Origin: Actinomycetes bacterium
GTDB lineage: Bacteria > Actinomycetota > Actinomycetes > Propionibacteriales > Propionibacteriaceae
Reading direction: 5' to 3'
Assembly (NCBI GenBank): GCA_021803025.1
Contig: JAJZQV010000001.1
Location: 1 to 64,000, forward strand
DNA length: 64,000 nt
The position numbers were made by a program, and so were the translations under genes. Positions 11,717 to 25,670 of the stretch are shown here, in pieces. The first letter of the stretch is position 1. Each line of letters starts with the position of its first letter. The notes under the pieces are model-generated. The model did no database searches, was not told where the DNA came from, and saw only the letters and a program-made list of their open reading frames with translations.

Positions 11717-14700
11717 CTAGAGTTGGTAGCACGTACCGAAGCCGGCTGCGCTCGTTCCCCACTTAACAGTGGGATATCCGTTGGTTCCCTTCGGATAGGC
11801 CGGCCCCCAATTGCCACCCTGGTCCACGGTAACCGTCACGTCATAGTCTGGAGCGCCAATTCCACCCGCATAGCATCGAACGGAACTACCCGGGTTGAAT
11901 CGAGACAGAGTAATGTTCACATATTCACAAGTCCCCCAGGGGCATGAGTTTGTGAACGTGACTCCGGAATTCGTGAACGCGAAAGACGGATTGCCCCAGG
12001 TAGAGGCGCTCGCGTAGCCGGACCACGCGCCCCACAAGCCCGTCTGGTCCTTCGCCCTGGCGCGAATCGACTTCGTCTGGTTGCGGCCATTACCCTGAAT
12101 AGTGCTGCCGCTGATGGGCTGCCCTGCCTGCTGCCCGCCGTCCGTGGTCTCGATCTGCACCTCGACGATGGGTCGCCCATTCCCGGAGCCGCCGGCGTTC
12201 CAGCTCAGCGTCACGTTGTTGACGCTTCCTGAGGCCGAGACCTGTGGTGCGTTGGGCGCGCCATATGGAACCACCGCTCCGCTCGGGACGAAGGAGCCTG
12301 TGACTGTTTCGCCGTTGACGGTGGATCGTGCGGCGATGCTGATCTGGTAGCTGTTGCCGTTGACGAGACCTCCGTAGGTGATGGTTCCCCCGGAAACCAC
12401 GGTTCCAGTACCACCTGCGGCATTCCACACATAGACGATCTCGCTAGCGAGGGCTCCGTTGCCGGGGGCGGGGTTGAACGTGACCTTCACCTGGTTGTTC
12501 GTCCCCGTGGCCGCCGCCACCAGACCTGTCACCGTCCCAGGGGTCTGGAACGCGCGGATCGGAGCCGAGGCAGGCGACCATGCGCTCCAGCCGGCCTTGT
12601 TCTGGGCCCGGTACTCGAACCTCTGGTCCGTCGTATCCACCGACAGTGTGAGCTGGGTGGAGGGAGCGGACCCGGTGTAGACGACGCTCGTGGCGCCGGT
12701 GCGCCGCAGCTCGTACGTCATGGTGGTGTCGCCGTTGCCGTTCGGTGGTGCCCAGCTGACCGTCGCGCTCGGCGCGAGGGTGCTGACGGGCTGCTTCACG
12801 ACGGTGGGGGCCACCAGGCTGAGTGGGACGCCCGCAGGGACCTCCGTCGCCGAGTAGCTCGACCAGTCGGACGGGAGGACAGCCTTCGAGTGCGCCTGGA
12901 CCCGGAACCTGTACGCAGTGCCGTTGGTGAGTCCGGTCCACGTGTACGAGGTGGCGGCCACCTGCTGCTGTGTGACGCCGCCGGTCGGCCCGTCGATCTC
13001 GAGCGTGTAGCTCTCCACCGCGGAGCCTTCGGTGGTCGGTGCCGCCCACGCGACGTCGATCTGCTTGTCGCCGAACGTGAGGGTCGGCGGCGCCGGCTGG
13101 TTCGGCTTGACGTCGGGCCGGACGACCGCTGAGGCCGCCGACGGGGCCGACTCGCCGACCTCGTTCGTCGCCGTGACGGTGAACGTGTACTCCACGTTGT
13201 TCGTGAGCAGGTTGCTCAGCTCACACACCGTGGTCGCGCCGCAGTCCTTCGTGCCGCCGTTCCACTTCACGGTGAACTTGCTGATCTGCGCGCCGTTGTT
13301 GGCACCCGGCTGCCAGCTGACGGTCGCGGACCGTGAGGCGTTCGTGACCCCGACGACAGCGGTGGGTGCGTCGGGCTTGTCGCGTACGGTCAGAGTGATC
13401 TTGCCCTGCACCTGCCGCGAGACCTCGCCCGTCGCATCAGCGAGCGTGTACACGACGGTGAGCTGACCGTGGAAGCCTGCGGAAGGAGCGACCGTGACGT
13501 TGAGGCCGTTCACGGACGCGGTGCCCGTCCCGACCTGGACCTGGGGCTGACCGACCAGGGTCAAGGGCTTGTTCAGATCTGCGAACGGGTTCGTTGCGTA
13601 CTGGGTCAGGTCGACGGTCTCCGCCTTCCCGGCGTTCGCTGAGGTGATGACGGCCTCTGTCGTCGTGATGAGCGGCCGGGACGACGCGATCGTCTTGATC
13701 GGGATCTGCGCGGCCACCGGAGTCGTGCTGCCGTCGGTGACGGTGATCTCAACCAGCCCGGCTGTCCCGATCTTCGTCTCCACAGGCGCCGACGCCTTGA
13801 GCATGTGCCCGGAGATGCTGACGTCGAAGCCGGCCGGGACCTTGCCCAGAGTGAAGGACATCCTGTCCATGTCGCCCTGGTCGGGGTCGGTGACCATCGC
13901 GAGGAGGTCGACCTCCTTGGCGGGTTCGATGGCAGAGACGTCGATCTCGGACGGGGACACCTTCGGCTGCGTCTTGCCTGACGACTGGACCACGATCGGC
14001 AGGGTCAGTACAACCTTGAGCCCGTTCGGGTCGTCGGGAGAGGACCCGTCGGTCACCTCGAATGTCAGCGAGCTGTTCCCGACGTACTCACCCACCGGTG
14101 TGAACACCAGCGTCGTGGCGTTCTTGACGATCGGGTCCCCGTTCGCGCCCGGTCCCGCCTTGACGCGGTTCTCGAAGGTGAGGATGGGCGAGTGCCCGTC
14201 CCGTACAGACACGTAGTCCGCGAGGTTGACTGTGAGCGTGTCGCCGCCCTTGATCGTCACCGGGACCTTGTCCGGCTTGAGCACCGGCAGCCTGTCGCTC
14301 GTTCCGGGAACGACGATCACCGCCTGGGCTGTCAGCCCGTCGACATCCGTGACCGTGTAGACGATCACCTGACGCGTGGGCGTGAGCGTGACGGTGACGA
14401 TGCCCTTGCTCTTGACGCTCGCGGTGGCCGAGTCCGTGGACACGACCAGCGCCTCTGCCGACCCGTCCGGATCCTCGTCGTTGGCGAGCACGTCGACATC
14501 CACCTGGGTCTTGCCGGCGACCTCGTACCCCTGCACCACATCGTCACGGGCGATGGGCGCCTGGAGGGGAGTATCCGTCCGGATGTCCAGCGTGAGCTGC
14601 CCTTGGGTCACGCCGCCCCGGCCGTCGCTGACCTGGTACACGAAGGAGTACAGACCAGGTGTCTGGGGAGCCGTGATGCTGACCCGAGCGCCCTCCGTGA

Positions 14701-17700
14701 CCGCCGCGATGCTGGAGGCGTTGCCCTGGCCCTTCGCCGAGCCCGGGACGAGCGACAGCGGGTCACCGTCGGGGTCGATGTCGTTCGCGAGGACCGGCAT
14801 CGACAGCAGTCGGCCAGGTCTGGCGATGACCAGGTCGGCGACGGCCACCGGCGGCTGGTTGATGGGAGACGGTGGAGCGATCCCGACCTTGACCGTTCCG
14901 ATGCCCCTGGCGCCGAAGCGGTCCATGACCGCGTACGTGAACGTGTCGGTGCCTGACGAACCTGACGGCGCCTCGTACGTGAGGTACTCGGACGCCGTGG
15001 TGACGGTGCCTTTCGACGGCGCTGTGTCGACGCCGAGCAGGGTCACGGAGTCGCCGTCGGGGTCGATGCCGTCGAGGCTCACGGGGATCTTGACGCTGGC
15101 GCCGGCAAGAACTCGGGCAGTCAGTGGAGGGGCAACCGGGGCGTTGTTCCCTGAGTCCGCCGCGCGGACGTCGATCTTCACCTGTGCCGAGGCGTACCCC
15201 TTCTGGGTGTCTCGCACGGTGTAGACGATGCGTGCCGTGCCGGGATCGGGTCCGGCCTTGAACCGCACGGTCTTCTCCGAGACGAAGGCCTCACCGGCCG
15301 CTGCGACGCCCTGCAGCTGAAGTGCGGGATCGAGCGAGAGCGCCAGCCCGGCAGGAGAGGTGTCGTTGTCGAGGACGTGGACGGTCACGATGTCGCCGGC
15401 CCGCACCGTGGCAACGTCGTCGGACGCCACCGGCGGAAGCCCGGAGGCCACAGCCGCCAGCGGAATGACAGTGACCGTCGCCGTGGCCGAACCGAAGCCG
15501 TTCGAGACCGTGTACGAGAACGACGCCTGCTTGGTGAGTCCACCAGGTGCGGTCACACGGATCTTCGCCCGGGCGACCACCTCGACGTGCAGCGCCGGGA
15601 TCTTCGTGATGTCGGTGGACTGGACGACGAGAACGCCACCAGTGGGATCGAAGTCGTTGGCGAGGACGTCGACGACCACTTCTCCACCTGCGGGCAGGAG
15701 CGCAAGGTCGTCATCGGCAACCGGTGGCGCGTCCTTCACGGGATCCACGACGTCCACGCGTACGACGCCCTTCGAGGCGGACGGTCCGTTCGACACGACA
15801 TAGTCGAGGTAGAAGGTCCCGACGACGGTGGACGTGAACCGGAACGACCCGGAGTCGTAGCTCGGTGTCACGGTCGTGCCTGCTGGTCCGTCCGAGATCT
15901 TCGCAAGACGGAGGGCGCCGCCGGACAGGTCGGTGTCGTTGTCGAGCGGCTTGACGACGACCTCCTCGCCCTTGATCACCCGGGCGAAGTCGGCATTGGC
16001 GACAGGTGCGTAGGTCCCCTTTGCACGCACGTCGACGTGAAGGACACCTTCCGTCTCCTTCGAGCCGTCGCTCATCACGATCTTCACGTCATAGCGGCCC
16101 GGCTGGTTCACGCCCAGGTCTCGAACGGTGACAAGACCATCCGCGCGGAACTTGGCCGTCATCCCCTGCGGCGCGGTAACCGAAGAGATGAAGAACTGGT
16201 CGCCATCGGGGTCGGACCAGTCGGGCGCGACGTTGTACTCGGCTTCGCCACCGCTGACCACGGAGGCGGCTCTTTGGGTACGCCATTGCACCGGCCCTGA
16301 GTTCACGTTCCACGGGTGAACGCTGACGTTGACCGATGCATCGGCCGTTCCGCCCCTGCCGTCGTCGGCGGTGTACGTGAACGTCCCTGGGCCGCTGGCA
16401 TTGTCCGGGACCGTGATCTGAAGGGCGGCCCCCGCACGTACGGCTCGCACCGTTCCGACCGAGGGGCTCTTGCCGGGCACGGCTGTGAGAACGTCCCCGT
16501 CGGGGTCGGTGTCGTTCTGCAGAACCGGGAGGGTCGTCGAACGCCCCGGTCTCACACCGAACTGGTCATCCACCGCGTTCGGCTTGTGGTTCTGCTGGGT
16601 ACGGTCGGGGTTGGCCTGTTCTTGGGTCGTGCTGTGGTTCTTGTCGTTCTTCTGCTCCTTGGACTTCAGGTCGGCCAGGATGTCGTTCCAGTTGTTCACG
16701 ACGACGACCTTGCTCGACACGACGAAGACGTCCCCGTTGGCGATGTTGTTGATGACGACGACATCGCGGTTCGTTCGGAACGTCAGGTTCTTGGCCGTTT
16801 GAAGCTTCGGTACCGACTGCGTGACGTTCGCACTGGCGTCGTCGCAGTCCCGAAGGTACTGGCCGGTCACAGCCCAGGCGGCGTATCGGCAGCCGCCCAT
16901 GACAACGGGCGCCACGGGTGTGCCGCGACCGCTCGCGCCGGCGGAGACTTGAGTGACCGCACCGTTCTGGAGCCGCACCTTCACCAAGGCGGTCGGAGAC
17001 TCGAGTGAGACGTCAGCCGCGCGCACACTGGGCTCCTGGAGCACTGCCTGCTCGAGACCGGCTACCGCATGTTGACCGGACGGAAGGTACACGACGTTCG
17101 TGGCGCGATCGAGAACCACCGCCTCCGGGCCGACACTCGTGATGCTGAGCTTCGAGGACTCGGTGATCCCCGACAGCTGTCGCTTGGACGGCTTCGACCA
17201 GCCGCCGCCCTGCGGTGTGACAGTGACGAGGAGGCCGGTCTTCGAGACGGCGTGCACGGCGCCGTCCAGGCCCACGACGACTGTCGCTCCGGGAACCCCG
17301 TCGATCACCGGAATGGACGTGTCGGGGGAGATCCCTGAGACAGAGGCGGCATCGGAGGCCCAGATCTTGCCGGCGGCTGAATCCACGATCGCCGCTTTCG
17401 TCCCTCCCTGCACGACCGTCATGCCCTCGGCCTTCACGGCGGTGCCCAGCGTGATGAGCGCGACGTCGACCGGATAGACCGATCCTCCGGTCGTGTCGTG
17501 AACGAGCACGTCCTTGGCGGACTGCGAGACGTCGAACGACGCCGACGGGGCGCGCAGGCCTCCGTCCAGGGTTCGCGAGGGGTAATTGAGATGGGCGACC
17601 AGGCGCAAGCTCTCATTGGTGACCCAGACCCCACCATCGTGGAGGCTTACGTCCTCGGTCGGCACGCCGGGGTGGATCGACGCGATGATTCCCACGACGA

Positions 17701-17761
17701 TGGCGGTGACCACAGCGAGCGCACTCGAGCCGCGCGACAGCGCAAGGCTCTTGAGAGCCAT
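11717..17761 (-). CDS. giant cell-surface protein with cadherin-like/Ig and fibronectin type III repeats
   Basis: A 2014-residue protein. Residues about 10-35 form an N-terminal signal-anchor helix. Residues 40-390 hold a beta-rich domain. From about 400 to 1300 there are eight or so tandem cadherin-like/Ig repeats recognised by the recurring V-x-x-N-D-x-D-P-D-G-D motif (for example VLANDIDPDGDPL). A less regular region follows, then about five Fn3 domains (about 1464-1920). The C-terminal tip (about 1925-2014) has four Cys (SCPWGTCEY, VRCYAG, GTCYQL) and unusual base composition. No LPxTG motif is present, so the N-terminal helix is the probable anchor. The start is ATG at 17761 with a GGGGGAAA ribosome site. 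It is the fn3 member of the PFNA-type cluster, probably an adhesin or surface fibre first in its operon. Confidence 0.93.
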   Translation of the reverse strand: MALKSLALSRGSSALAVVTAIVVGIIASIHPGVPTEDVSLHDGGVWVTNESLRLVAHLNYPSRTLDGGLRAPSASFDVSQSAKDVLVHDTTGGSVYPVDVALITLGTAVKAEGMTVVQGGTKAAIVDSAAGKIWASDAASVSGISPDTSIPVIDGVPGATVVVGLDGAVHAVSKTGLLVTVTPQGGGWSKPSKRQLSGITESSKLSITSVGPEAVVLDRATNVVYLPSGQHAVAGLEQAVLQEPSVRAADVSLESPTALVKVRLQNGAVTQVSAGASGRGTPVAPVVMGGCRYAAWAVTGQYLRDCDDASANVTQSVPKLQTAKNLTFRTNRDVVVINNIANGDVFVVSSKVVVVNNWNDILADLKSKEQKNDKNHSTTQEQANPDRTQQNHKPNAVDDQFGVRPGRSTTLPVLQNDTDPDGDVLTAVPGKSPSVGTVRAVRAGAALQITVPDNASGPGTFTYTADDGRGGTADASVNVSVHPWNVNSGPVQWRTQRAASVVSGGEAEYNVAPDWSDPDGDQFFISSVTAPQGMTAKFRADGLVTVRDLGVNQPGRYDVKIVMSDGSKETEGVLHVDVRAKGTYAPVANADFARVIKGEEVVVKPLDNDTDLSGGALRLAKISDGPAGTTVTPSYDSGSFRFTSTVVGTFYLDYVVSNGPSASKGVVRVDVVDPVKDAPPVADDDLALLPAGGEVVVDVLANDFDPTGGVLVVQSTDITKIPALHVEVVARAKIRVTAPGGLTKQASFSYTVSNGFGSATATVTVIPLAAVASGLPPVASDDVATVRAGDIVTVHVLDNDTSPAGLALSLDPALQLQGVAAAGEAFVSEKTVRFKAGPDPGTARIVYTVRDTQKGYASAQVKIDVRAADSGNNAPVAPPLTARVLAGASVKIPVSLDGIDPDGDSVTLLGVDTAPSKGTVTTASEYLTYEAPSGSSGTDTFTYAVMDRFGARGIGTVKVGIAPPSPINQPPVAVADLVIARPGRLLSMPVLANDIDPDGDPLSLVPGSAKGQGNASSIAAVTEGARVSITAPQTPGLYSFVYQVSDGRGGVTQGQLTLDIRTDTPLQAPIARDDVVQGYEVAGKTQVDVDVLANDEDPDGSAEALVVSTDSATASVKSKGIVTVTLTPTRQVIVYTVTDVDGLTAQAVIVVPGTSDRLPVLKPDKVPVTIKGGDTLTVNLADYVSVRDGHSPILTFENRVKAGPGANGDPIVKNATTLVFTPVGEYVGNSSLTFEVTDGSSPDDPNGLKVVLTLPIVVQSSGKTQPKVSPSEIDVSAIEPAKEVDLLAMVTDPDQGDMDRMSFTLGKVPAGFDVSISGHMLKASAPVETKIGTAGLVEITVTDGSTTPVAAQIPIKTIASSRPLITTTEAVITSANAGKAETVDLTQYATNPFADLNKPLTLVGQPQVQVGTGTASVNGLNVTVAPSAGFHGQLTVVYTLADATGEVSRQVQGKITLTVRDKPDAPTAVVGVTNASRSATVSWQPGANNGAQISKFTVKWNGGTKDCGATTVCELSNLLTNNVEYTFTVTATNEVGESAPSAASAVVRPDVKPNQPAPPTLTFGDKQIDVAWAAPTTEGSAVESYTLEIDGPTGGVTQQQVAATSYTWTGLTNGTAYRFRVQAHSKAVLPSDWSSYSATEVPAGVPLSLVAPTVVKQPVSTLAPSATVSWAPPNGNGDTTMTYELRRTGATSVVYTGSAPSTQLTLSVDTTDQRFEYRAQNKAGWSAWSPASAPIRAFQTPGTVTGLVAAATGTNNQVKVTFNPAPGNGALASEIVYVWNAAGGTGTVVSGGTITYGGLVNGNSYQISIAARSTVNGETVTGSFVPSGAVVPYGAPNAPQVSASGSVNNVTLSWNAGGSGNGRPIVEVQIETTDGGQQAGQPISGSTIQGNGRNQTKSIRARAKDQTGLWGAWSGYASASTWGNPSFAFTNSGVTFTNSCPWGTCEYVNITLSRFNPGSSVRCYAGGIGAPDYDVTVTVDQGGNWGPAYPKGTNGYPTVKWGTSAAGFGTCYQL

Positions 17762-18097
17762 GACGATTTCCCCCTGTTGGTAGAGCGGGGTGGAAGTGCC
17801 CCTACCGTTCGTCGGCCGAAGTCGGCGTGAACAGGAATATGATGACGCGTTCATTGTTGAGAACGTCAAATGCACAGAATGGGTAGTTCTCCCCATTCCG
17901 GGCAATTACTGGACAATTGCCGGGCAATGCTGGTTGAACTGGACACGCCAAGAAGGGCTTCCAGATCCGAGGACGACGACGAGCGACAGCTCGCACGACC
18001 CAGGATCCCGCGCTCTGCGCGCTGAGGCCACCGCACGCCGGGTCTTCGTACGTTCTCATACAGGGCCGCTCAGACGCGGCCGCTGCGACCGTGTGGG
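17762..18097. other. intergenic leader region upstream of the fn3 operon
   Basis: This 336-bp gap separates the STAND NTPase gene from the fn3 operon, both on the minus strand. It should hold the operon promoter. The part at about 17830-17940 is clearly more AT-rich than its surroundings and contains an inverted repeat (listed separately). No convincing gene is seen. Confidence 0.6.
17901..17921. promoter_or_regulatory. inverted repeat, candidate operator of the fn3-MoxR-kinase operon
   Basis: GGCAATT and AATTGCC form perfect 7-bp arms separated by 7 bp, about 140 bp upstream of the fn3 ATG in an AT-richer part of the leader. The position and symmetry fit a dimeric repressor or activator site. 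No regulator is assigned. Confidence 0.35.
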
Positions 18098-21000
18098 TCA
18101 GCAGACTCGCTGTCGAGTGACTCCCGGGAGGTAGCGCGCCCACTCGTCGTCTGTGAGAGGCGTGCCTTGCTTGGCGCACAGGCTCGCCCGGGCCGCCGCG
18201 GGGGTGGTGTCCCATTCGCGGAGCAGGCCCGTGTCCCCTGCCCCGAGCAGCTTCTGCCCGTCGGCGTAGAACCGCACGTCGAGCGCGCCCCCCAAGCCCC
18301 CAGCGAGGCTGTACCGTGCCGTCGCGTCTTTGCCGATGTCCCAGAGCCATAGGTATCCCTCGCCCGAGGCTGCAGCAAGGTGCTGACCGTCCGGCGAGAA
18401 GTTCACGCCGACCACTGGTGAGATGGCGTCGTGGTACGTGCGGACGATCGCCGGCTTCGCTGGACTGCTGAGGTCCCACACATAGACGGTCCCCAGATCC
18501 GTACCGGCGGCAACGTACTTCCCCTGCCGGCTCGTCGTGACAGCCGTAGGATTTGCGTCGGTCTTGAGCGTCTCGAGCAGGCGAGGATTGGCCGCAGTGA
18601 GGTCGAACACCATGACATACCCGTCCGCGGACCCCACGAAGTAGAACCTTCCATCGGCTGTGAAGGCCCCAGTCTGCGGCGTGGGGGTGTCGAGGGTGGC
18701 CGTCGGCGTCCAGGTGCCATCCGCACTTCGGTGGGCGACGATCGAGGTGACACCCAGGAAGCGGGTCGCGACCAGAGTGTCCCCGTCCGGGGAGACCGCG
18801 ATGCTGCCGAAGCTGCCGGCGTCGGTGAGCTGACTGGTACGAGGCGTCCCCGCTCCTTGATCGGTCAAAGGCCAGGTCACCACGCCCCCCGAGCTCGTTC
18901 CGACGACTAGCTCGGTGCCGGCCGCGTTGATGGCGAGGGCGCTGCCCAACCTGACTCCGCTCGGTACGCTCGGTGTGGCGGCAGCACCGAGGCGGATGCC
19001 CTTCCACAGCATCGCCTTGCCTCCCGAAGAGGTGGCGAGCCACTTCTGTCCCAGGGAGTCCGAGGCAAGCTGCCACAGGGGCGTACCAGTTCGACGGATG
19101 ACCGGCGAGCGGGCGTCCCAGACACGCAGCGCGCCGTCGACGCTGGAGGTGACGATCTGCGCACCCGCCCAGGCGACCGACGTCACCTGGGCTGGATCGG
19201 ACAGAACCCGACCGACGCTCCAGTCGGCCGTACCGACGACGTAGGTCTTCTGGTCCGAGTCCGCGATCGCAAGCTGGCTGCCGTCCGCATTGAAGGCCAC
19301 TCCGTTGACGAAGCTCGTGACCTCACTGAGGCTTGCCATCTGCTCTCCGGATGTGAGATCCCAGAGGCGGACCTCCGCAGCTGCCAGCCCGGCCGCCAGC
19401 CAGTGCTCGTCCCGGCTCACCGCGAGCGCCTGCACACGTCCGGTCCGGGGGTGCGCCTCTGGCAGCGTGCCCACTTGCACGTACGCAGCGCCGCTCCTCC
19501 GCCATCGAGTAACGGCCCCGTCGCCGCCCAGGAAGACGTCGCCCGATGGGGCGACCGCCACGGCGCGCGCAGCGGCGGGGGCGTCCTGAATCGCCGTCAA
19601 GGTCTGGCCAGCCACGGTCAGCCATGACACCGAGTGCTCGGCGCCGAAGACCAGGAGGGAGCCATCGCCAGAGAATGCCGTCGAGTACGTCGTGTCCTTC
19701 GGACAGGTCCCATACAGCTGCGTCGGCGCGGCCGTGATGTCCCACACCGTACGGCACTTGCCCGCCGTAGCCACGAGGACGTGGTCGCCTCGCACCACCG
19801 CTGCCACAGCGTAGATCGGTGACGCGCTGGTGTCGGCAAGGAACGTGGTTCCCGGAGAGGTTCTGAGCGCCGCGGTGGGCCACCACGTCACCTCACCGAC
19901 AGAGTTGGCCCGGAACACATACGTGCCGTCGCCCGTAGCACCAGCCACCGAGCTCAGCGGCCCGGTCCACCGCGTCGGGGTGTCGGCGGCAGCGGCGTCG
20001 AGTACCGCCGAGTTGCCCTCTCGCGTGTCGCTGATGACCGATGCGGCCGTCGCCATCTGGGCGCGCACGTTGGGGTCAACGACGCGGAGCTGCACGGATG
20101 CAGCCGCGACCTGGCGGGACTGGGCATCCGCCTGGATCCGCTGCGTATGCACGACCTGGTAACCGGCGACCACCGCGAGCACAGTGGTCAGGCTCGCCAG
20201 GGTGGTGACTAGTCGGGTTCGACGCCGGAGTCGACCGTTCACGATCCGTTCCTGCTGGACGACCGATGCGAAATGGGACTCGCTCGCTGCGACGAACTCC
20301 GTCACGACGGGCTGGGCGCCGTTGGACTCCTGCAGCGCAGACTGGAACACAGGAAGCCGGTCGACAGGGAGCAGGAGGGCGTCGGGACGGCCCTGCTCCT
20401 GCCACGAGGCCGCTGCTTGTTGAAGCCGCTCCATCGCTCGCAGCCGAGCGCGGTCCTCCTCGATCCACCCGTGGAGCCTCGGCCAGTGCGCGATCAGCGC
20501 ATCGTGGCTGATCCACACCTCGCTATCCGAGATGGTCAGCAGCCGCGCGGCCGCAAACACGCGAGCCGCCGCGCGGTGGTTCTCGCTCAGCTCGTCGAGC
20601 CGCGCATGCCTTCGAACGATCGCCTCACCATCGAGCCTGACGAGTCTCAGGAACATTGACTTGACGGTGTCGGTTTCCTCTTGTCCTGACGTCGAGTATG
20701 CGCTCTCCGCAAGCTCGTCGATGCTGTGGGCGAGCCCTCCGGCTGCGAGATAGTCAGAGGCCCGGAACACGCTGCCGTCCGATCGCGTCCATCCTGCGGC
20801 CAAGGCATTCGAGATCAGGGGCAGCACGCTGGGCTGCATGTCGCCGCCGGTCAGCCCGGCATCGCGAAGTACAAGCTCGACCAGTTGGGGGTCAACTGTC
20901 GCCCCGGCCGTCTGGGCGGGCCCAGACACGATCTGACGAACGTCATCCGGGGTCACCGGACCGATCAGGAACGGGCGACTCAGAGGCTCACGGAGCCCCG

Positions 21001-21682
21001 GGAATTGAGCCGCCTCACCGAACGCGTCCGCGCGCAGCACCGCCAACGCCACGACTCCTTCCGGCAAGACCGACAGCCTGTCGATTCCTTCGACATGTCC
21101 GCTGCGGATCTGGTCGTCGAGCTGGTCGACGATCCACAGCTCGTGCGGGTCCTGGGCGTCCTGGGTCGAGACCTCCGAGAGTCGGAGAAACCTGACTCTC
21201 CACCCTTCGAGCACCCCGCCCGGCTGGGTGTGCCGACCGGCCACACCGGCGGCCACCAAGGACGACTTCCCGCTCCCCGACGCGCCCAGAACGACGAGCA
21301 GACGCTGCTTCGCCTCGTTGAACCGGTGCAGGACCTCTGTAGCGAGGCGAGCCGACTCTGCGTCGCGTCCGGAGAAGAGGGTCCAGTCAGAGGCCGTGTA
21401 CGGCCGCAGTCCAAGGTACGGAGACTCCTTCGCCAACCATGAGCCTTCAACGTCAGCACCCCAGAGCTCCGGAGTGATGTAGTCGTCGAGGCCGAGCCGA
21501 TGAACGAGCAGCAGGAACTGAGGACGGAGAGCGGGCGTCGGGAAATGGCGACCATTCAGCCAGCCCTGCACGGTCGCAGTCGGCAACCCGACGATGCGGG
21601 CCGCGCCGCGGATGGAAACGTGCTGCTCACGGCGGGCCTGCTCGAGCGCAGCGGCCAGTTGATCTCGCACTGAGATGGACAC
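18098..21682 (-). CDS. HTH - nSTAND1 NTPase - WD40 repeat protein
   Basis: A 1194-residue STAND protein. Residues about 5-48 form a lambda-repressor-like helix-turn-helix (SIRGAARIVGLPTATVQGWL). An nSTAND1-type NTPase follows (about 88-480) opening with YLGLRPYTASDWTLFSGRD and containing Walker A GASGSGKSSL (133-142) and LWIVDQLDD as Walker B. One hydrophobic helix lies at about 489-511, then a C-terminal WD40 propeller (about 560-1190; repeated LAVSRDEHWLAAG- and VRLWDL-type units). STAND proteins act as sensor switches that assemble upon ligand binding; WD40 would be the sensor. Such HTH-STAND-WD40 proteins are common in actinobacteria and some STANDs are antiphage sensors. The start is GTG at 21682 with an upstream GAGAGG. 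The ligand and output are unknown. Confidence 0.9.
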   Translation of the reverse strand: MSISVRDQLAAALEQARREQHVSIRGAARIVGLPTATVQGWLNGRHFPTPALRPQFLLLVHRLGLDDYITPELWGADVEGSWLAKESPYLGLRPYTASDWTLFSGRDAESARLATEVLHRFNEAKQRLLVVLGASGSGKSSLVAAGVAGRHTQPGGVLEGWRVRFLRLSEVSTQDAQDPHELWIVDQLDDQIRSGHVEGIDRLSVLPEGVVALAVLRADAFGEAAQFPGLREPLSRPFLIGPVTPDDVRQIVSGPAQTAGATVDPQLVELVLRDAGLTGGDMQPSVLPLISNALAAGWTRSDGSVFRASDYLAAGGLAHSIDELAESAYSTSGQEETDTVKSMFLRLVRLDGEAIVRRHARLDELSENHRAAARVFAAARLLTISDSEVWISHDALIAHWPRLHGWIEEDRARLRAMERLQQAAASWQEQGRPDALLLPVDRLPVFQSALQESNGAQPVVTEFVAASESHFASVVQQERIVNGRLRRRTRLVTTLASLTTVLAVVAGYQVVHTQRIQADAQSRQVAAASVQLRVVDPNVRAQMATAASVISDTREGNSAVLDAAAADTPTRWTGPLSSVAGATGDGTYVFRANSVGEVTWWPTAALRTSPGTTFLADTSASPIYAVAAVVRGDHVLVATAGKCRTVWDITAAPTQLYGTCPKDTTYSTAFSGDGSLLVFGAEHSVSWLTVAGQTLTAIQDAPAAARAVAVAPSGDVFLGGDGAVTRWRRSGAAYVQVGTLPEAHPRTGRVQALAVSRDEHWLAAGLAAAEVRLWDLTSGEQMASLSEVTSFVNGVAFNADGSQLAIADSDQKTYVVGTADWSVGRVLSDPAQVTSVAWAGAQIVTSSVDGALRVWDARSPVIRRTGTPLWQLASDSLGQKWLATSSGGKAMLWKGIRLGAAATPSVPSGVRLGSALAINAAGTELVVGTSSGGVVTWPLTDQGAGTPRTSQLTDAGSFGSIAVSPDGDTLVATRFLGVTSIVAHRSADGTWTPTATLDTPTPQTGAFTADGRFYFVGSADGYVMVFDLTAANPRLLETLKTDANPTAVTTSRQGKYVAAGTDLGTVYVWDLSSPAKPAIVRTYHDAISPVVGVNFSPDGQHLAAASGEGYLWLWDIGKDATARYSLAGGLGGALDVRFYADGQKLLGAGDTGLLREWDTTPAAARASLCAKQGTPLTDDEWARYLPGVTRQRVC

Positions 21683-21968
21683 AGCCGGAATCCTCTCAGA
21701 ACCACGTCATGCACTGGGTCGGCAGGTGACTTCCGGATACAGGTGACGCGCAGGATCGTGCATTCGATGTCTCGCAAGCCGCGACCTCCCTACGCGGATG
21801 AAAGTCGCCCATGAGCCACACGCATCCGCTCGTTCCTGCTCTCGCGCGACGCTTCGTACTTTCCACACCGCGACGACTCGCTCGTACGTCTACCCACCTT
21901 TCGACTGACATCTGAGCCCTTCAGCGGCAGACACCGACCACCGGTGGTCGCAACTTCTGGGCCGCGCC
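21683..21968. other. intergenic region, promoter side of the STAND gene
   Basis: A 286-bp gap between the primase-helicase stop and the STAND start. It is less GC-rich than the flanking genes. It should contain the STAND promoter, but I see no clear hexamers, repeat or RNA gene. Confidence 0.45.
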
Positions 21969-24350
21969 CTATTGCCCCACCACTTCGAAGCCGAGGGCTC
22001 GATAGCCGGGCATGCGGCGCCGCAGGGAGGCGGCAACTATCGGTGTTGCCACATCGTGGTAGTCGTGGGCTTCGGCGACGTCCTTGCCCGGCGAGCTTCG
22101 AACCACGCGACCCGCGCACTGGACGAGGAGGCCGTCGAAAGAGATCGGCCCGGCGAGGAACAGAGTGTCGAGTGCTGGGACGTCGAATCCCTCGCCGATG
22201 AAGGGGGTCGTGCCGATGACCACGATCGCGTCTCCCGGACGGGCGTCAGCAAGTTCCGCGACGGTGCTTCGTCGTTCGCTCGCCGACATGCCCCCTTGGA
22301 GCACGAGCGGTCGCTGCCCGTGGCTGGTCAGCTGCTTGGCGAGGGTGTCGACGTGTGCAACGCGCCTCGTGAGTACGAGGCAGTTCCGGCGGCGGCCGAG
22401 GGCCTCGAGGATGTCAGCGACGATCTGGTCGTTTCGGTCCTCGTCGGCAATGAGGGCCCGTTGCACTTCGGCAAGGGTGGCTGGGTCGGAGAAGTCCACG
22501 TCGCCAAAGGCGAAGCGGGTGTCGTGGATGTGCAACTCGCGCCGCGGACCGCCTTCCGCTACGTCTGGGGCCAACAGCGTGCCGGGATGCTGGGTGGCGC
22601 CGATCACGTGCCGGATGGGACCGAGCTGCCATGTAGCCAGATCACCGAGTCCGTCGCGTCGCTTGGGCGTGGCCGTGAGCCCGAGCCAGAAGCGAGCCGC
22701 CATGGGCTTCACCGAATGCTCGTAGGCGGCCGCCGCCAAGTGGTGGCACTCGTCGACGATGACCTGCCCATAGTCGTTGGTCAGCTGGTCGATCTCCTCG
22801 CGCCTGGCGAGGGAGGGGAGCATCGCGATGTCGACAATGCCGCTGAGTTTCTTGCGTCCGCCGCCCAGCTGGCCCGCACGGATCCCCAGGAACTGCTCAA
22901 TCCGGGTCCGCCACTGTTCCGCGAGTGCCTTCCGGTCGACCAGGACGAGGGTCGACGTCCCCCGCTCGGCAATGAGTGCGCACGCCATGACCGTCTTGCC
23001 AGCGCCGGGCGGTGCCACGAGGATGCCGTCGTCGTGGGCGAGGAGCGCATTGACCGCTGATGCTTGAGGTTCGGACAACTCCGTACCCAAGGCGAGGTCG
23101 ATCTCCCGACCAGGCCTGCGCGCGTCGGTGACCTCCAGACGAGAGCCGGATCGTTCGACGATTTCCGCGACCTGATGCCGTAGTCCTCGAGGGAGCACCA
23201 GTCGATCATCGAGAGTGACGTCGTAGCCTCGAACGAACCGGGGCGTGTCCCACGTCGACTTCCGCAGTCGCTGAAGCTCGTAGAACTTCGGGTTCGCCAG
23301 CGACGCGACGTGCTTCAAGGTCGCGACCGCCGAGGGGGTCAGCTGGGACATGTCGATCGCAAGACCGGCAGCGAGCTCCGCGCGGACCACCGCTGGCAGC
23401 CGGGGCTGGACCTTGCTGGCGGTCGACACACTCACCACCGCGATTCCGCTCCCCATCGGGGTCGGCCCCACATGCTTGGCAAGGCGGGCCGCGTCACGTG
23501 GGTCGAGGCGATCGAGGGTGGACAGGTAGGCCCATTGGTCGGCATGCGGCTCCAGGGTTGCCAGATCGAGGAAGACCGTCAGCCCATCGCGGCGACGCCG
23601 GCCCTGCAGGGGCGCCGCGATGAGGTTCCCGAACCCACCTGCTGGGAGAAGATCCTGGTTAGGGAACAGCCGGTCGTACGAGCGCAGGTCCATCGCCCCC
23701 CGCAGCACCATCGCCTCGTGGACAAGCCACGTCCCGATGGCCCGCGCGGTCACAGCCGGAACGGGGCCCGAGAACATGATCCACACGTGCGCCCCGCGCC
23801 CAGACTGGGAGATCTCCACGGCAGCCGGGATCCGTCGGCTCCTGGCGGCCTTCGCGTATGCCAGCGCATCCATCATCGCCACGGCTCCATCGAAGTCGGC
23901 CGCCAGGAAATGGCAGGCGTTGGTGGTCAGCAGTGGGTACAGGCCGATGAAGACCTCCCCTGCCAGGTGCGCGCCCAGCACGTCCGGCGTCAACGGGAGG
24001 TGACGGATGCTGCTGCGGTCCGCGCCCTTTCGCCAGCCGCCGGCCACGGCCGGCGACCACCCGCTCAGCCCGGATCGGGCGTTCTCCCAGCGCACTGCGT
24101 ACACGTCGCGGCGCGCCTGGAATCGGTCCGCATACAGCCGAAGCTTGTCGTCCAAGGACGACGCCATGGTGACCATCCCCGGAGTCGCCAACGGCATCGC
24201 CGGCTGCTCAGCGGCCGGCGTCGTGTCCCAGCCGCGCAGCTCGAGCAGCCGCGACAACCGAGCGTTCTCATCGCGCAGACGCTCCAGCTCGCGAGCCAAA
24301 ACGGCGATCTCGGCACGACCCGACGAAGAGTCCATGCCTCCCATTCTCAC
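21969..24350 (-). CDS. TOTE-type archaeo-eukaryotic primase fused to SF2 helicase
   Basis: A 793-residue fusion. Residues 12-42 form a coiled coil (ARELERLRDENARLSRLLE). Residues about 70-290 match the archaeo-eukaryotic primase fold of the TOTE conflict-system type: FLAADFDG gives the catalytic D-x-D near 147, SGRGAHVWIMF supplies the His motif, and LPAGGFGNLIAAPLQG the third motif. Residues about 425-793 form a superfamily 2 helicase with Walker A APPGAGKT (near 445), DECHH, LTATPKRRDG and the C-terminal QCAGRVVR arginine finger motif. Such primase-helicase fusions are proposed to act in conflict between hosts and mobile DNA. Start choice is unsure: GTG at 24350, ATG at 24344 or ATG at 24335. 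The HepT gene ends 12 bp upstream, so all may be one transcript. Confidence 0.87.
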   Translation of the reverse strand: MRMGGMDSSSGRAEIAVLARELERLRDENARLSRLLELRGWDTTPAAEQPAMPLATPGMVTMASSLDDKLRLYADRFQARRDVYAVRWENARSGLSGWSPAVAGGWRKGADRSSIRHLPLTPDVLGAHLAGEVFIGLYPLLTTNACHFLAADFDGAVAMMDALAYAKAARSRRIPAAVEISQSGRGAHVWIMFSGPVPAVTARAIGTWLVHEAMVLRGAMDLRSYDRLFPNQDLLPAGGFGNLIAAPLQGRRRRDGLTVFLDLATLEPHADQWAYLSTLDRLDPRDAARLAKHVGPTPMGSGIAVVSVSTASKVQPRLPAVVRAELAAGLAIDMSQLTPSAVATLKHVASLANPKFYELQRLRKSTWDTPRFVRGYDVTLDDRLVLPRGLRHQVAEIVERSGSRLEVTDARRPGREIDLALGTELSEPQASAVNALLAHDDGILVAPPGAGKTVMACALIAERGTSTLVLVDRKALAEQWRTRIEQFLGIRAGQLGGGRKKLSGIVDIAMLPSLARREEIDQLTNDYGQVIVDECHHLAAAAYEHSVKPMAARFWLGLTATPKRRDGLGDLATWQLGPIRHVIGATQHPGTLLAPDVAEGGPRRELHIHDTRFAFGDVDFSDPATLAEVQRALIADEDRNDQIVADILEALGRRRNCLVLTRRVAHVDTLAKQLTSHGQRPLVLQGGMSASERRSTVAELADARPGDAIVVIGTTPFIGEGFDVPALDTLFLAGPISFDGLLVQCAGRVVRSSPGKDVAEAHDYHDVATPIVAASLRRRMPGYRALGFEVVGQ

Positions 24351-24362
24351 GTGGGACTTCGA

Positions 24363-24686
24363 TCAGAGACTGCTCAAGCGTTCGGCCAGTGGGCCGAGTT
24401 GTCGATCGACGATGTCAATGATGAGGTCCGGGTTCACGCGGAAGTACTCGTGTACGACGATGTTGCGCAAACCCGCGATCGCGGACCACGGGACGTCGGG
24501 CATTCGCTCGCGCGACTCGCTGGGCAACGAACGGACTGCCTCACCGATCACCGCGAGGTTGCGCAAGACAGCGTCGTAAGCCATCGGGGCGAACTCATCG
24601 TCGCCACCGAGGTAAGGGCGATAGTCCTGGCACCGCTGGATCGCGTGGAGGATGTCGGAGAACCGCTCCTGGTCTGATCGACTCAC
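24363..24686 (-). CDS. hepT: HepT-like ribonuclease toxin (DUF86)
   Basis: A 107-residue helical HEPN protein with the catalytic R-x4-H-x-Y motif intact as RNIVVHEY near residues 73-80. In this type VII toxin-antitoxin family HepT cleaves RNA and is silenced when MntA AMPylates the Tyr of the motif. The GTG start overlaps the mntA stop (GTGA), the standard coupled arrangement of antitoxin first and toxin second. The following primase-helicase begins only 12 bp downstream, suggesting co-transcription. Confidence 0.92.
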   Translation of the reverse strand: MSRSDQERFSDILHAIQRCQDYRPYLGGDDEFAPMAYDAVLRNLAVIGEAVRSLPSESRERMPDVPWSAIAGLRNIVVHEYFRVNPDLIIDIVDRQLGPLAERLSSL

Positions 24687-25003
24687 AGCGCCACCGAGTC
24701 ACCCAGCGCACTCGCTGAAACCTCACCACGCAGAAGCGAAGGCGTCACGACGTCGACCCTCAGCCCCAAGACCTGGCCCAACTCTTCTGCGATACCTGCG
24801 ACGCACAGCAACTCGTTGCCCCGGCCCGGGACGAGATCTACGAGAAGATCAATGTCACTCTCGGGAGTGGCGTCGCCTCTTGCCACCGAGCCAAACAGCC
24901 GGGGGTTGACGGCCCCGTACCGCCGCAAGATGTCGTCTAGGGCAGCACGCTGCGCCGCAATCGCTGCACGCAGCGACACGCTCTCGGCAGTCACCATGCT
25001 CAT
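24683..25003 (-). CDS. mntA: MntA-like minimal nucleotidyltransferase antitoxin
   Basis: A 106-residue MNT-fold nucleotidyltransferase with the signature GSVARGD followed by SDIDLLVD (G-S-x10-D-x-D), so metal and nucleotide binding residues are present. It should neutralise HepT by AMPylation. The start is taken at ATG 25003; ATG 24997 is an alternative; a longer open frame upstream shows no similarity. It is the first gene of the MntA-HepT pair. Confidence 0.9.
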   Translation of the reverse strand: MSMVTAESVSLRAAIAAQRAALDDILRRYGAVNPRLFGSVARGDATPESDIDLLVDLVPGRGNELLCVAGIAEELGQVLGLRVDVVTPSLLRGEVSASALGDSVAL

Positions 25004-25582
25004 GTTGCGATCGTACCGGGCTAGGTGCTCAAGAGCAGGGGACGCGGTCCACCGACCCCCGCACCAGACCACGCCAGCTCGCACGGTGACGCTGATGGCG
25101 TGGGTATCGATTGTCGTAGAAGGCGTTCGGCGCGGTCATCGGCCCAGCCGACCTCGATCGGCGGTCTCGGCCATCGCCGATCTGGCCCTCGAGTCACGGA
25201 GCAAGCGCCGTCAGCGGGTCGTGACAGCGCCCGTCAGGGAGCGTGATGATCGCGTCGATCTCCTGGCGTTGGAGTCGGCAGTGGCATACCTCTAGGACAA
25301 GGATTGCAGCATCCCTGAGACGAGGACTGCAGGCCTCGCTCTACCGAACGCCTCGATGCTCCCGCTGGATCTGCACCCCGGAGGGAGCTTGTTCACCTTC
25401 TGGTGCAGCCAATGGAACTGAACACACTCACCTCGGCAGACCCGCCCGGAGCGGCCTCCAGCGCCCTCCACGGAGGAGTCCGCCGCGAAAGATAGCGCAA
25501 AAATAGCGCACAGATAGCGGACCAGGGCCTCAACGTGGAGTCCGGTGCGGGGTATACGCCCTAGTCAGGGCGCAGTTCACAG
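25004..25582. other. intergenic region with a possible gene relic
   Basis: A gap of 579 bp between mntA and the 3' end of tRNA-Ser. On the minus strand around 25235-25290 a short stretch reads EIDAIITLPDGR, like a strand pair seen in DUF4143 (AAA-family) proteins, then breaks off with a stop; it may be the remains of such a gene. At about 25491-25520 the motif ATAGCGCA recurs two to three times in an AT-rich patch. Nothing else is recognised. Confidence 0.4.
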
Positions 25583-25670
25583 TGGCGGAGGATACGAGAT
25601 TCGAACTCGTGAGGGCTTGCACCCAACCCGCTTTCCAAGCGAGCGCCATAGGCCTCTAGGCGAATCCTCC
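25583..25670 (-). tRNA. tRNA-Ser(GGA)
   Basis: Class II tRNA on the minus strand. The acceptor strands GGAGGAT and ATCCTCC pair perfectly, the anticodon loop is TTGGAAA (anticodon GGA, reading UCC/UCU), a long variable arm is present as expected for serine, the T arm has GAGTTCGAATCTC, and CCA is encoded. Its 3' end faces the toxin-antitoxin/primase island, a common place for island insertion. Confidence 0.96.

Follow-up and report, generated by a model that had tools for sequence, protein, structure and literature searches.

Why should a toxin–antitoxin (TA) pair and a primase-helicase stand together beside a tRNA gene in a genome of the Propionibacteriaceae? The question is raised by three minus-strand genes, mntA, hepT and a gene for a Prim-Pol–SF2 helicase, in a 64,000-nucleotide stretch of contig JAJZQV010000001.1 (assembly GCA_021803025.1, positions 1 to 64,000; hereafter the window). 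We propose that this trio is one case of a composite unit in which an exchangeable TA operon is followed by a Prim-Pol/XPB-like helicase, and which spreads as a tiny recombinase-free mobile islet favouring tRNA 3' ends, with the TA pair as its guard and the helicase acting at forks; we give this account an even chance of being right.

The TA pair lies immediately upstream of the window helicase on the same strand, in a layout that is operon-like: mntA and hepT overlap by 4 bp, and hepT is followed by the helicase gene after 27 bp if the latter starts at the ATG at 24335, or after 12 bp if it starts at the GTG at 24350; a further in-frame ATG is located at 24344. A PF01934 toxin adjoining a PF01909 antitoxin is the composition of HepT/MntA Class I, and the motifs of both are intact, RX4HXY in HepT (RNIVVHEY) and GSX10DXD in MntA (GSVARGDATPESDID). 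The window pair thus shares its Pfam families, gene order and motifs with the HepT/MntA (HEPN/MNT) Class I, type VII TA systems (PMC7641770) but differs from them in that a Prim-Pol–helicase follows in the same direction, and the studied HepT has low sequence similarity to that of the window (best PDB E-value 0.008). The 3' end of tRNA-Ser points towards mntA at a distance of 580 bp, and no integrase or transposase is present among the genes called at 18.1-25.0 kb. The AEP family is represented by a single copy in this genome, which carries a second mntA-hepT pair unlinked to the one in the window. An earlier note, made from the window sequence alone, had placed four genes on one strand of this locus, the minus strand, and its coordinates and the curated profiles agree; the operon-like arrangement that it described for mntA, hepT and the primase-helicase also stands, and a search for recurrent trios finds the same order and strand in seven further genomes from three genera of the family.

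The AlphaFold2 model of the helicase (mean pLDDT 86.6, pTM 0.78) starts with an N-terminal helix (residues 3-30), followed by a Prim-Pol domain with the fold of the CRISPR-associated Prim-Pol (CAPP; 7nqd/7nqf), the alignment to 7nqf having a Z score of 22.7 and a root-mean-square deviation (rmsd) of 2.4 Å over 203 residues. The remainder matches XPB on forked DNA (6p4f_C; Z 25.1, rmsd 4.2 Å over 391 residues), including the region that precedes the helicase core, and the closest solved helicases by sequence are XPBII (1e-24) and RadD-like proteins. In 77 homologues the Prim-Pol residues DFD, SxSGxGxH and D266 and the helicase motifs GKT, DECHH and Q..GR..R are invariant or nearly so. The XPB-like and Prim-Pol folds of the model therefore make an enzyme that would act on DNA forks or damage the natural reading. 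The protein differs from CAPP in its fusion to an XPB-like helicase, with no CRISPR partner seen among the neighbours examined, and from XPB/Rad25 and RadD/UvsW, which it resembles in the helicase and preceding domain, in its fusion to a Prim-Pol; no Bax1 partner was seen. Although the AEP domain falls in the Pfam family that takes its name from the TOTE conflict systems (TPR, OB, TBP, Effector; PMC12458937), we reject TOTE as the name of this system, because TBP is missing from the genome (no PF00352 match in the whole genome; a control search was positive in archaea) and none of the four locus genes, to which that search was confined, encodes a TPR-OB (cold-shock) partner, a TA pair being found instead. 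A phage or provirus origin was also rejected, since neither a set of 50,697 phage records nor an IMG/VR scan yielded a full-length homologue of the helicase.

Homologues of the helicase were collected by a genome contig search (80 loci), by order-level and phylum-level searches and from annotated plasmids, and dereplication at 90% helicase identity reduced the loci to 95 groups. Because the contig scan relied on peptide patterns taken from the window protein, it favours the kin of that protein; genes were called by a simple codon-usage script with approximate starts, and several loci stop at contig edges. A TA module lies within two genes of the helicase in 42 of the 95 groups, mostly directly upstream on the same strand, where the gaps are mostly short or overlapping. 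AbiE, HTH-NTase, MntA/HepT, PIN, Fic and HigBA are found beside the helicase, with at least eight unrelated types overall; an AAA_14-DUF4143 neighbour and a pair designated C5/C7 are not counted as TA in these figures. With iterated profiles and the seed loci excluded, 29 of 97 upstream same-strand neighbours (30%) are of TA type, versus 10 of 410 genes at a distance of at least four positions (2.4%; Fisher 4.5e-15), counts that lean upward since the profile seeds were chosen from near genes. The Pfam comparison is free of that bias: among 108 upstream same-strand neighbours it finds AbiEii 11 times, AbiEi_4 eight times, HepT four times and PIN_3 and Fic twice each; in a comparison set of 108 genes at least four positions away in the same loci, each of these families occurs once at most.

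The TA pairs, moreover, are exchanged. On a tree of 125 helicases the type of neighbour changes at least 27 times among the rows with an assigned module, a figure that includes the AAA_14 and C5/C7 types, and 45 times if "none" is treated as a state. In Verrucomicrobia, helicases that are 92-95% identical stand with AbiE in some loci and with an HTH-NTase pair in others; the DNA of such sisters is alignable from the helicase start to about 140-180 bp beyond its stop, and the TA part is unrelated. In the pair L125 (AbiE) and L136 (HTH-NTase), for example, the helicases are 95.4% identical and the match ends about 145 bp beyond the stop. Sister helicases even occupy the same tRNA with different TA pairs (L090 and L102 at tRNA-Pro, L117 and L125 at tRNA-Gly). 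One primase-helicase travels with many swappable TA pairs in a widespread pattern, of which the window trio is one case.

Self-comparison revealed direct repeats flanking many of the helicase units, and in 13 loci the bracketing repeats are tRNA 3' ends. They correspond to tRNA-Thr (L079), tRNA-Pro (L090, L102 and L164), a Gly-type tRNA (L117, L119, L125 and L137), tRNA-Cys (L130), tRNA-Ser (L113), tRNA-Val (L097) and tRNA-Leu (L088), and in L131 tRNA fragments stand on both sides with no complete tRNA called. Leaving out L088, which spans 5.9 kb and holds more genes, 11 of the 12 bracketed loci contain a TA pair and the helicase only, within 3.7-5.0 kb; the twelfth, L164 (2.9 kb), has MntA/HepT and a broken, decayed helicase. 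The TA pairs are AbiE, HTH-NTase, MerR-PIN, HEPN/MNT, TacA-GNAT (L102) and Zeta (L113), and no integrase is seen in any bracketed locus. More widely, a tRNA gene lies within 3 kb in 19 of the 95 groups and turns its 3' end towards the unit in 17 of these 19 (p 3.6e-4), and genome G239 has the trio at the edge of a 17-kb island bounded by tRNA-Pro and a 28-bp tRNA-Pro repeat. Composition, adjacency, operon-like layout, TA enrichment and exchange, the tRNA-end repeats of the 13 related loci and intact active sites are established at the level of sequence. CIME-like integrative elements and islands without an integrase of their own exist at tRNA genes; the islets described here have the same tRNA 3'-end direct repeats and lack of a recombinase, but differ in being only 2.9-5.0 kb and in their constant TA and helicase content across phyla.

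We infer a mechanism with three parts: movement by a recombinase acting in trans, a guard role for the TA pair and a fork-directed role for the helicase. A tyrosine recombinase supplied in trans would move the islet between tRNA sites. MntA would silence HepT by AMPylation, as tri-AMPylation neutralises the ribonuclease toxin in HepT/MntA Class I; if the unit were lost or disturbed, HepT would be freed and the cell arrested, so that the TA pair would be an addiction or guard device. The XPB-like half would bind forked or damaged DNA and the Prim-Pol half would re-prime or copy DNA, which may serve the replication or repair of the islet itself or else act against invading DNA. CreTA, which guards CRISPR-Cas (PMC9458426), is likewise a TA module that is physically linked to a second system and presumably guards it; the islets here differ from it in having protein TA pairs of many types and no RNA guide. 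A bolder version, which we advance tentatively and with the chances somewhat against it, is that the islets are an unrecognised class of minimal mobile elements of 2.9-5.0 kb, located at tRNA 3' ends, with tRNA-end direct repeats and no recombinase, in which the Prim-Pol–XPB-like helicase is constant and the only other cargo is a TA pair of at least six unrelated types; the helicase would then either replicate or repair the element or belong to a new kind of TA-guarded immunity. Literature searches found no paper describing islets of TA and AEP-helicase, which is not proof of novelty. An enigmatic primase-helicase of E. coli and at least seven other phyla is now tied to a specific context, swappable TA pairs and insertion at tRNA ends. 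Should the islets move with no recombinase of their own, their very small size would make them suited to asking by what they are moved and why TA pairs are so often chosen, and they would let one ask whether the Prim-Pol–helicase serves element replication or host defence.

Several observations weigh against the mobile islet as we propose it, the first of them at the window itself. There is no second match in the window to the last 20 nt of tRNA-Ser (up to three mismatches), and no bracketing or terminal repeat was detected for the window copy by a repeat finder, short blast or a tRNA-tail pattern. About 90 bp after tRNA-Ser are common to the genus-mates G001 and G004 (blastn, 86-89% identity, to 25494/25485), so that the window copy is not obviously inserted at the tRNA end itself; given these shared 90 bp and the missing far repeat, it is only by composition and position that it can be placed in the bracketed class. 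Elsewhere, the empty-site search for L079 and L164 found relatives that keep the tRNA side and differ in the other flank, with no complete empty site demonstrated; small repeat-bracketed islets without a helicase occur at tRNA-Thr in Nocardioides, and the helicase is therefore not needed for movement; and for roughly half of the helicase homologues no TA neighbour was recognised. Where genus-mates have a comparable locus, the stretch of about 17.7-25.49 kb is missing from it. The blastn match to G002 ends at 25580, beside the tRNA end, and the sequence after tRNA-Ser varies, genes reading like a type I restriction system lying directly at the tRNA end in G002 and other genes in G001. Gene order around the window site is rearranged relative to G002. 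The window copy may be an older or rearranged islet beside tRNA-Ser whose second repeat was not detected.

The other settings in which the helicase is found bear on what the TA pair is for. Annotated plasmids are in line with the islet account: on some the helicase stands beside HigBA, AbiEii (6 bp gap) or HipBA, and other plasmid copies lie in transposon-like units with a recombinase and Tn3 transposase, with TniB-TniQ or with tyrosine recombinases, of which there are often three consecutively. Of 5,426 complete E. coli genomes, 491 contain the helicase over most of its length; the copies examined occur with an inovirus Gp2-like protein, often with AlpA and YfjI, beside replication genes and with no annotated TA pair. 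This persistence without a TA pair argues for the TA pair as a guard rather than an obligatory effector. It touches a serious rival, in which the locus would be a phage-defence system: abnormal DNA, such as forks, damage or phage replication, would be detected by the Prim-Pol–helicase, which would then free the toxin encoded next to it, much as HamB activates HamA in Hachiman, an earlier case of a helicase sensor coupled to an effector (PMC12278908). Adjacent, same-strand, exchangeable toxins do resemble swapped effectors, the helicase half is like the damage- and fork-binding XPB/UvsW, and TA pairs are often found alongside immune systems on mobile elements (PMC8649781). We nevertheless consider such a defence system unlikely, because every toxin retains its own antitoxin, the toxins differ widely in chemistry and fold, many intact helicases such as the E. 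coli copies have no TA nearby, and the window proteins match neither the HamA effector nor the HamB helicase profile of Hachiman (Ham).

Alternatively, TA pairs and helicase could be independent passengers that both gather in mobile DNA and are co-located only for that reason. Both are mobile, free-standing HepT/MntA pairs are also present in the same family, orientation varies in some loci, and the TA-free half of the helicase loci would fit as well. Three observations make this quite improbable: TA genes drop from 30% to 2-3% over a distance of four genes inside the same islands, TA then helicase on one strand with short gaps is the preferred order, and eleven repeat-bracketed islets hold these genes only.

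The earlier note had instead suggested HepT/MntA and the primase-helicase as a possible dedicated three-part system with the HepT ribonuclease as an effector controlled by the helicase, which we regard as very improbable in spite of the trio order and strand kept in seven other genomes: the six of these that are included in the helicase tree cluster in a single subclade, which is not the closest one to the window, the nearest relatives of the window helicase (about 73% identity) have other neighbours, the helicase pairs with at least eight unrelated TA types, and the window HepT groups with free-standing HepTs. HepT as a dedicated effector is accordingly not supported. The window HepT (54% identity to that of L176) does not group with the HepTs of the seven trio genomes, and at least six changes are needed on the helicase tree to account for the MntA/HepT-helicase linkage; since its nearest relatives are free-standing, the recruitment of HEPN/MNT beside the helicase is convergent. 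Near further helicase homologues, MNT-HEPN or MNT genes are found that differ in order or strand. Two observations that the note had named as counting against a single system diverged: the helicase does regularly occur without HepT/MntA, and no separate promoter before 24350 was found, a scan of the minus strand from 21600 to 25600 for sigma-70-like promoters, itself weak evidence, giving none.

The STAND gene, which the earlier note had listed among the modules of the island, starts 286 bp downstream of the helicase and does not belong to the proposed unit. An orthologue with 82% identity is present in a genus-mate that has no AEP-helicase match, where homology to the window ends at 21574, and no STAND gene was found near the other helicase homologues examined. 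It is therefore a neighbour and was rejected as a member of the system. The features of the locus are collected in Table 1.

Table 1. Features of the tRNA-Ser locus in the window, with the evidence for each.
Feature	Coordinates	Strand	Evidence and remarks
tRNA-Ser(GGA)	25583..25670	-	ARAGORN; 3' end towards the mntA-hepT-helicase unit, orientation compared across loci
About 90 bp after tRNA-Ser, common to genus-mates; variable part starts near 25490	25490..25582		blastn
mntA, MNT-family adenylyltransferase antitoxin, 106 aa	24683..25003	-	Pfam PF01909 NTP_transf_2 (6e-13), motif
hepT, HEPN ribonuclease toxin, 107 aa	24363..24686	-	Pfam PF01934 HepT-like (7e-21), motif
Prim-Pol–SF2 helicase, AEP-TOTE family, 788 aa	21969..24335	-	AEP-TOTE PF22548 (5.5e-71) and ResIII/Helicase_C; AlphaFold2 model
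Prim-Pol domain, residues 59-291	23463..24161	-	VIA-align of model to 7nqf
XPB/UvsW-like module, residues 314-788	21972..23396	-	VIA-align of model to 6p4f_C; sequence match XPBII 1e-24
Gap between helicase and STAND gene	21683..21968		expected far end of unit if like bracketed relatives; repeat not found
HTH-nSTAND1-WD40 ATPase	18098..21682	-	HTH, nSTAND1 (4e-72) and WD40 propellers; separate neighbour

On the other side of the STAND gene, a large Big_9/fn3 surface-protein gene (window 11717-17905) faces the island and tRNA-Ser. Its orthologue in G002 (L274:4701-17397) adjoins genes reading as recF-dnaN-dnaA, and its placement is a rearrangement near the presumed origin region. A MazF-like open reading frame, recognised by eye from the start of its sequence, lies near the same tRNA-Ser in genus-mate G001 (L273:5945-6334).

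Stops or split frames interrupt several of the helicase copies (L164:7332-8794, L055 and L056), as expected for dispensable mobile genes. In locus L155:3979-8160 (G235) a different mntA-hepT pair lies on each side of the helicase: the upstream pair shares its strand, and the downstream pair is convergent with it. The C5/C7 neighbour pair of Micromonosporaceae was considered as a TA module and left uncounted, with no profile match and no solved fold for C5. A two-gene pair (103 aa and 385 aa) adjoins the helicase in L073:6461-7927 and its Micromonosporaceae relatives, where it is divergent, and in L124:10486-12018; the L073 pair has no Pfam or NCBIfam match, and the model of the larger protein (pLDDT 85) has no solved-structure match below E 0.001. 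On the alphaproteobacterial plasmids L243, L282, L284 and L291 the helicase is convergent with three consecutive tyrosine recombinase genes. The helicase-free islets with tRNA-end repeats are about 2.4-3.7 kb long and lie at tRNA-Thr(CGT) in L312:1274-5032 (G790), L313:1302-3955 (G390) and L314:1338-3787 (G791), that of G790 encoding a Fic protein; tRNA-Thr looks like a hotspot for integrase-less islets.

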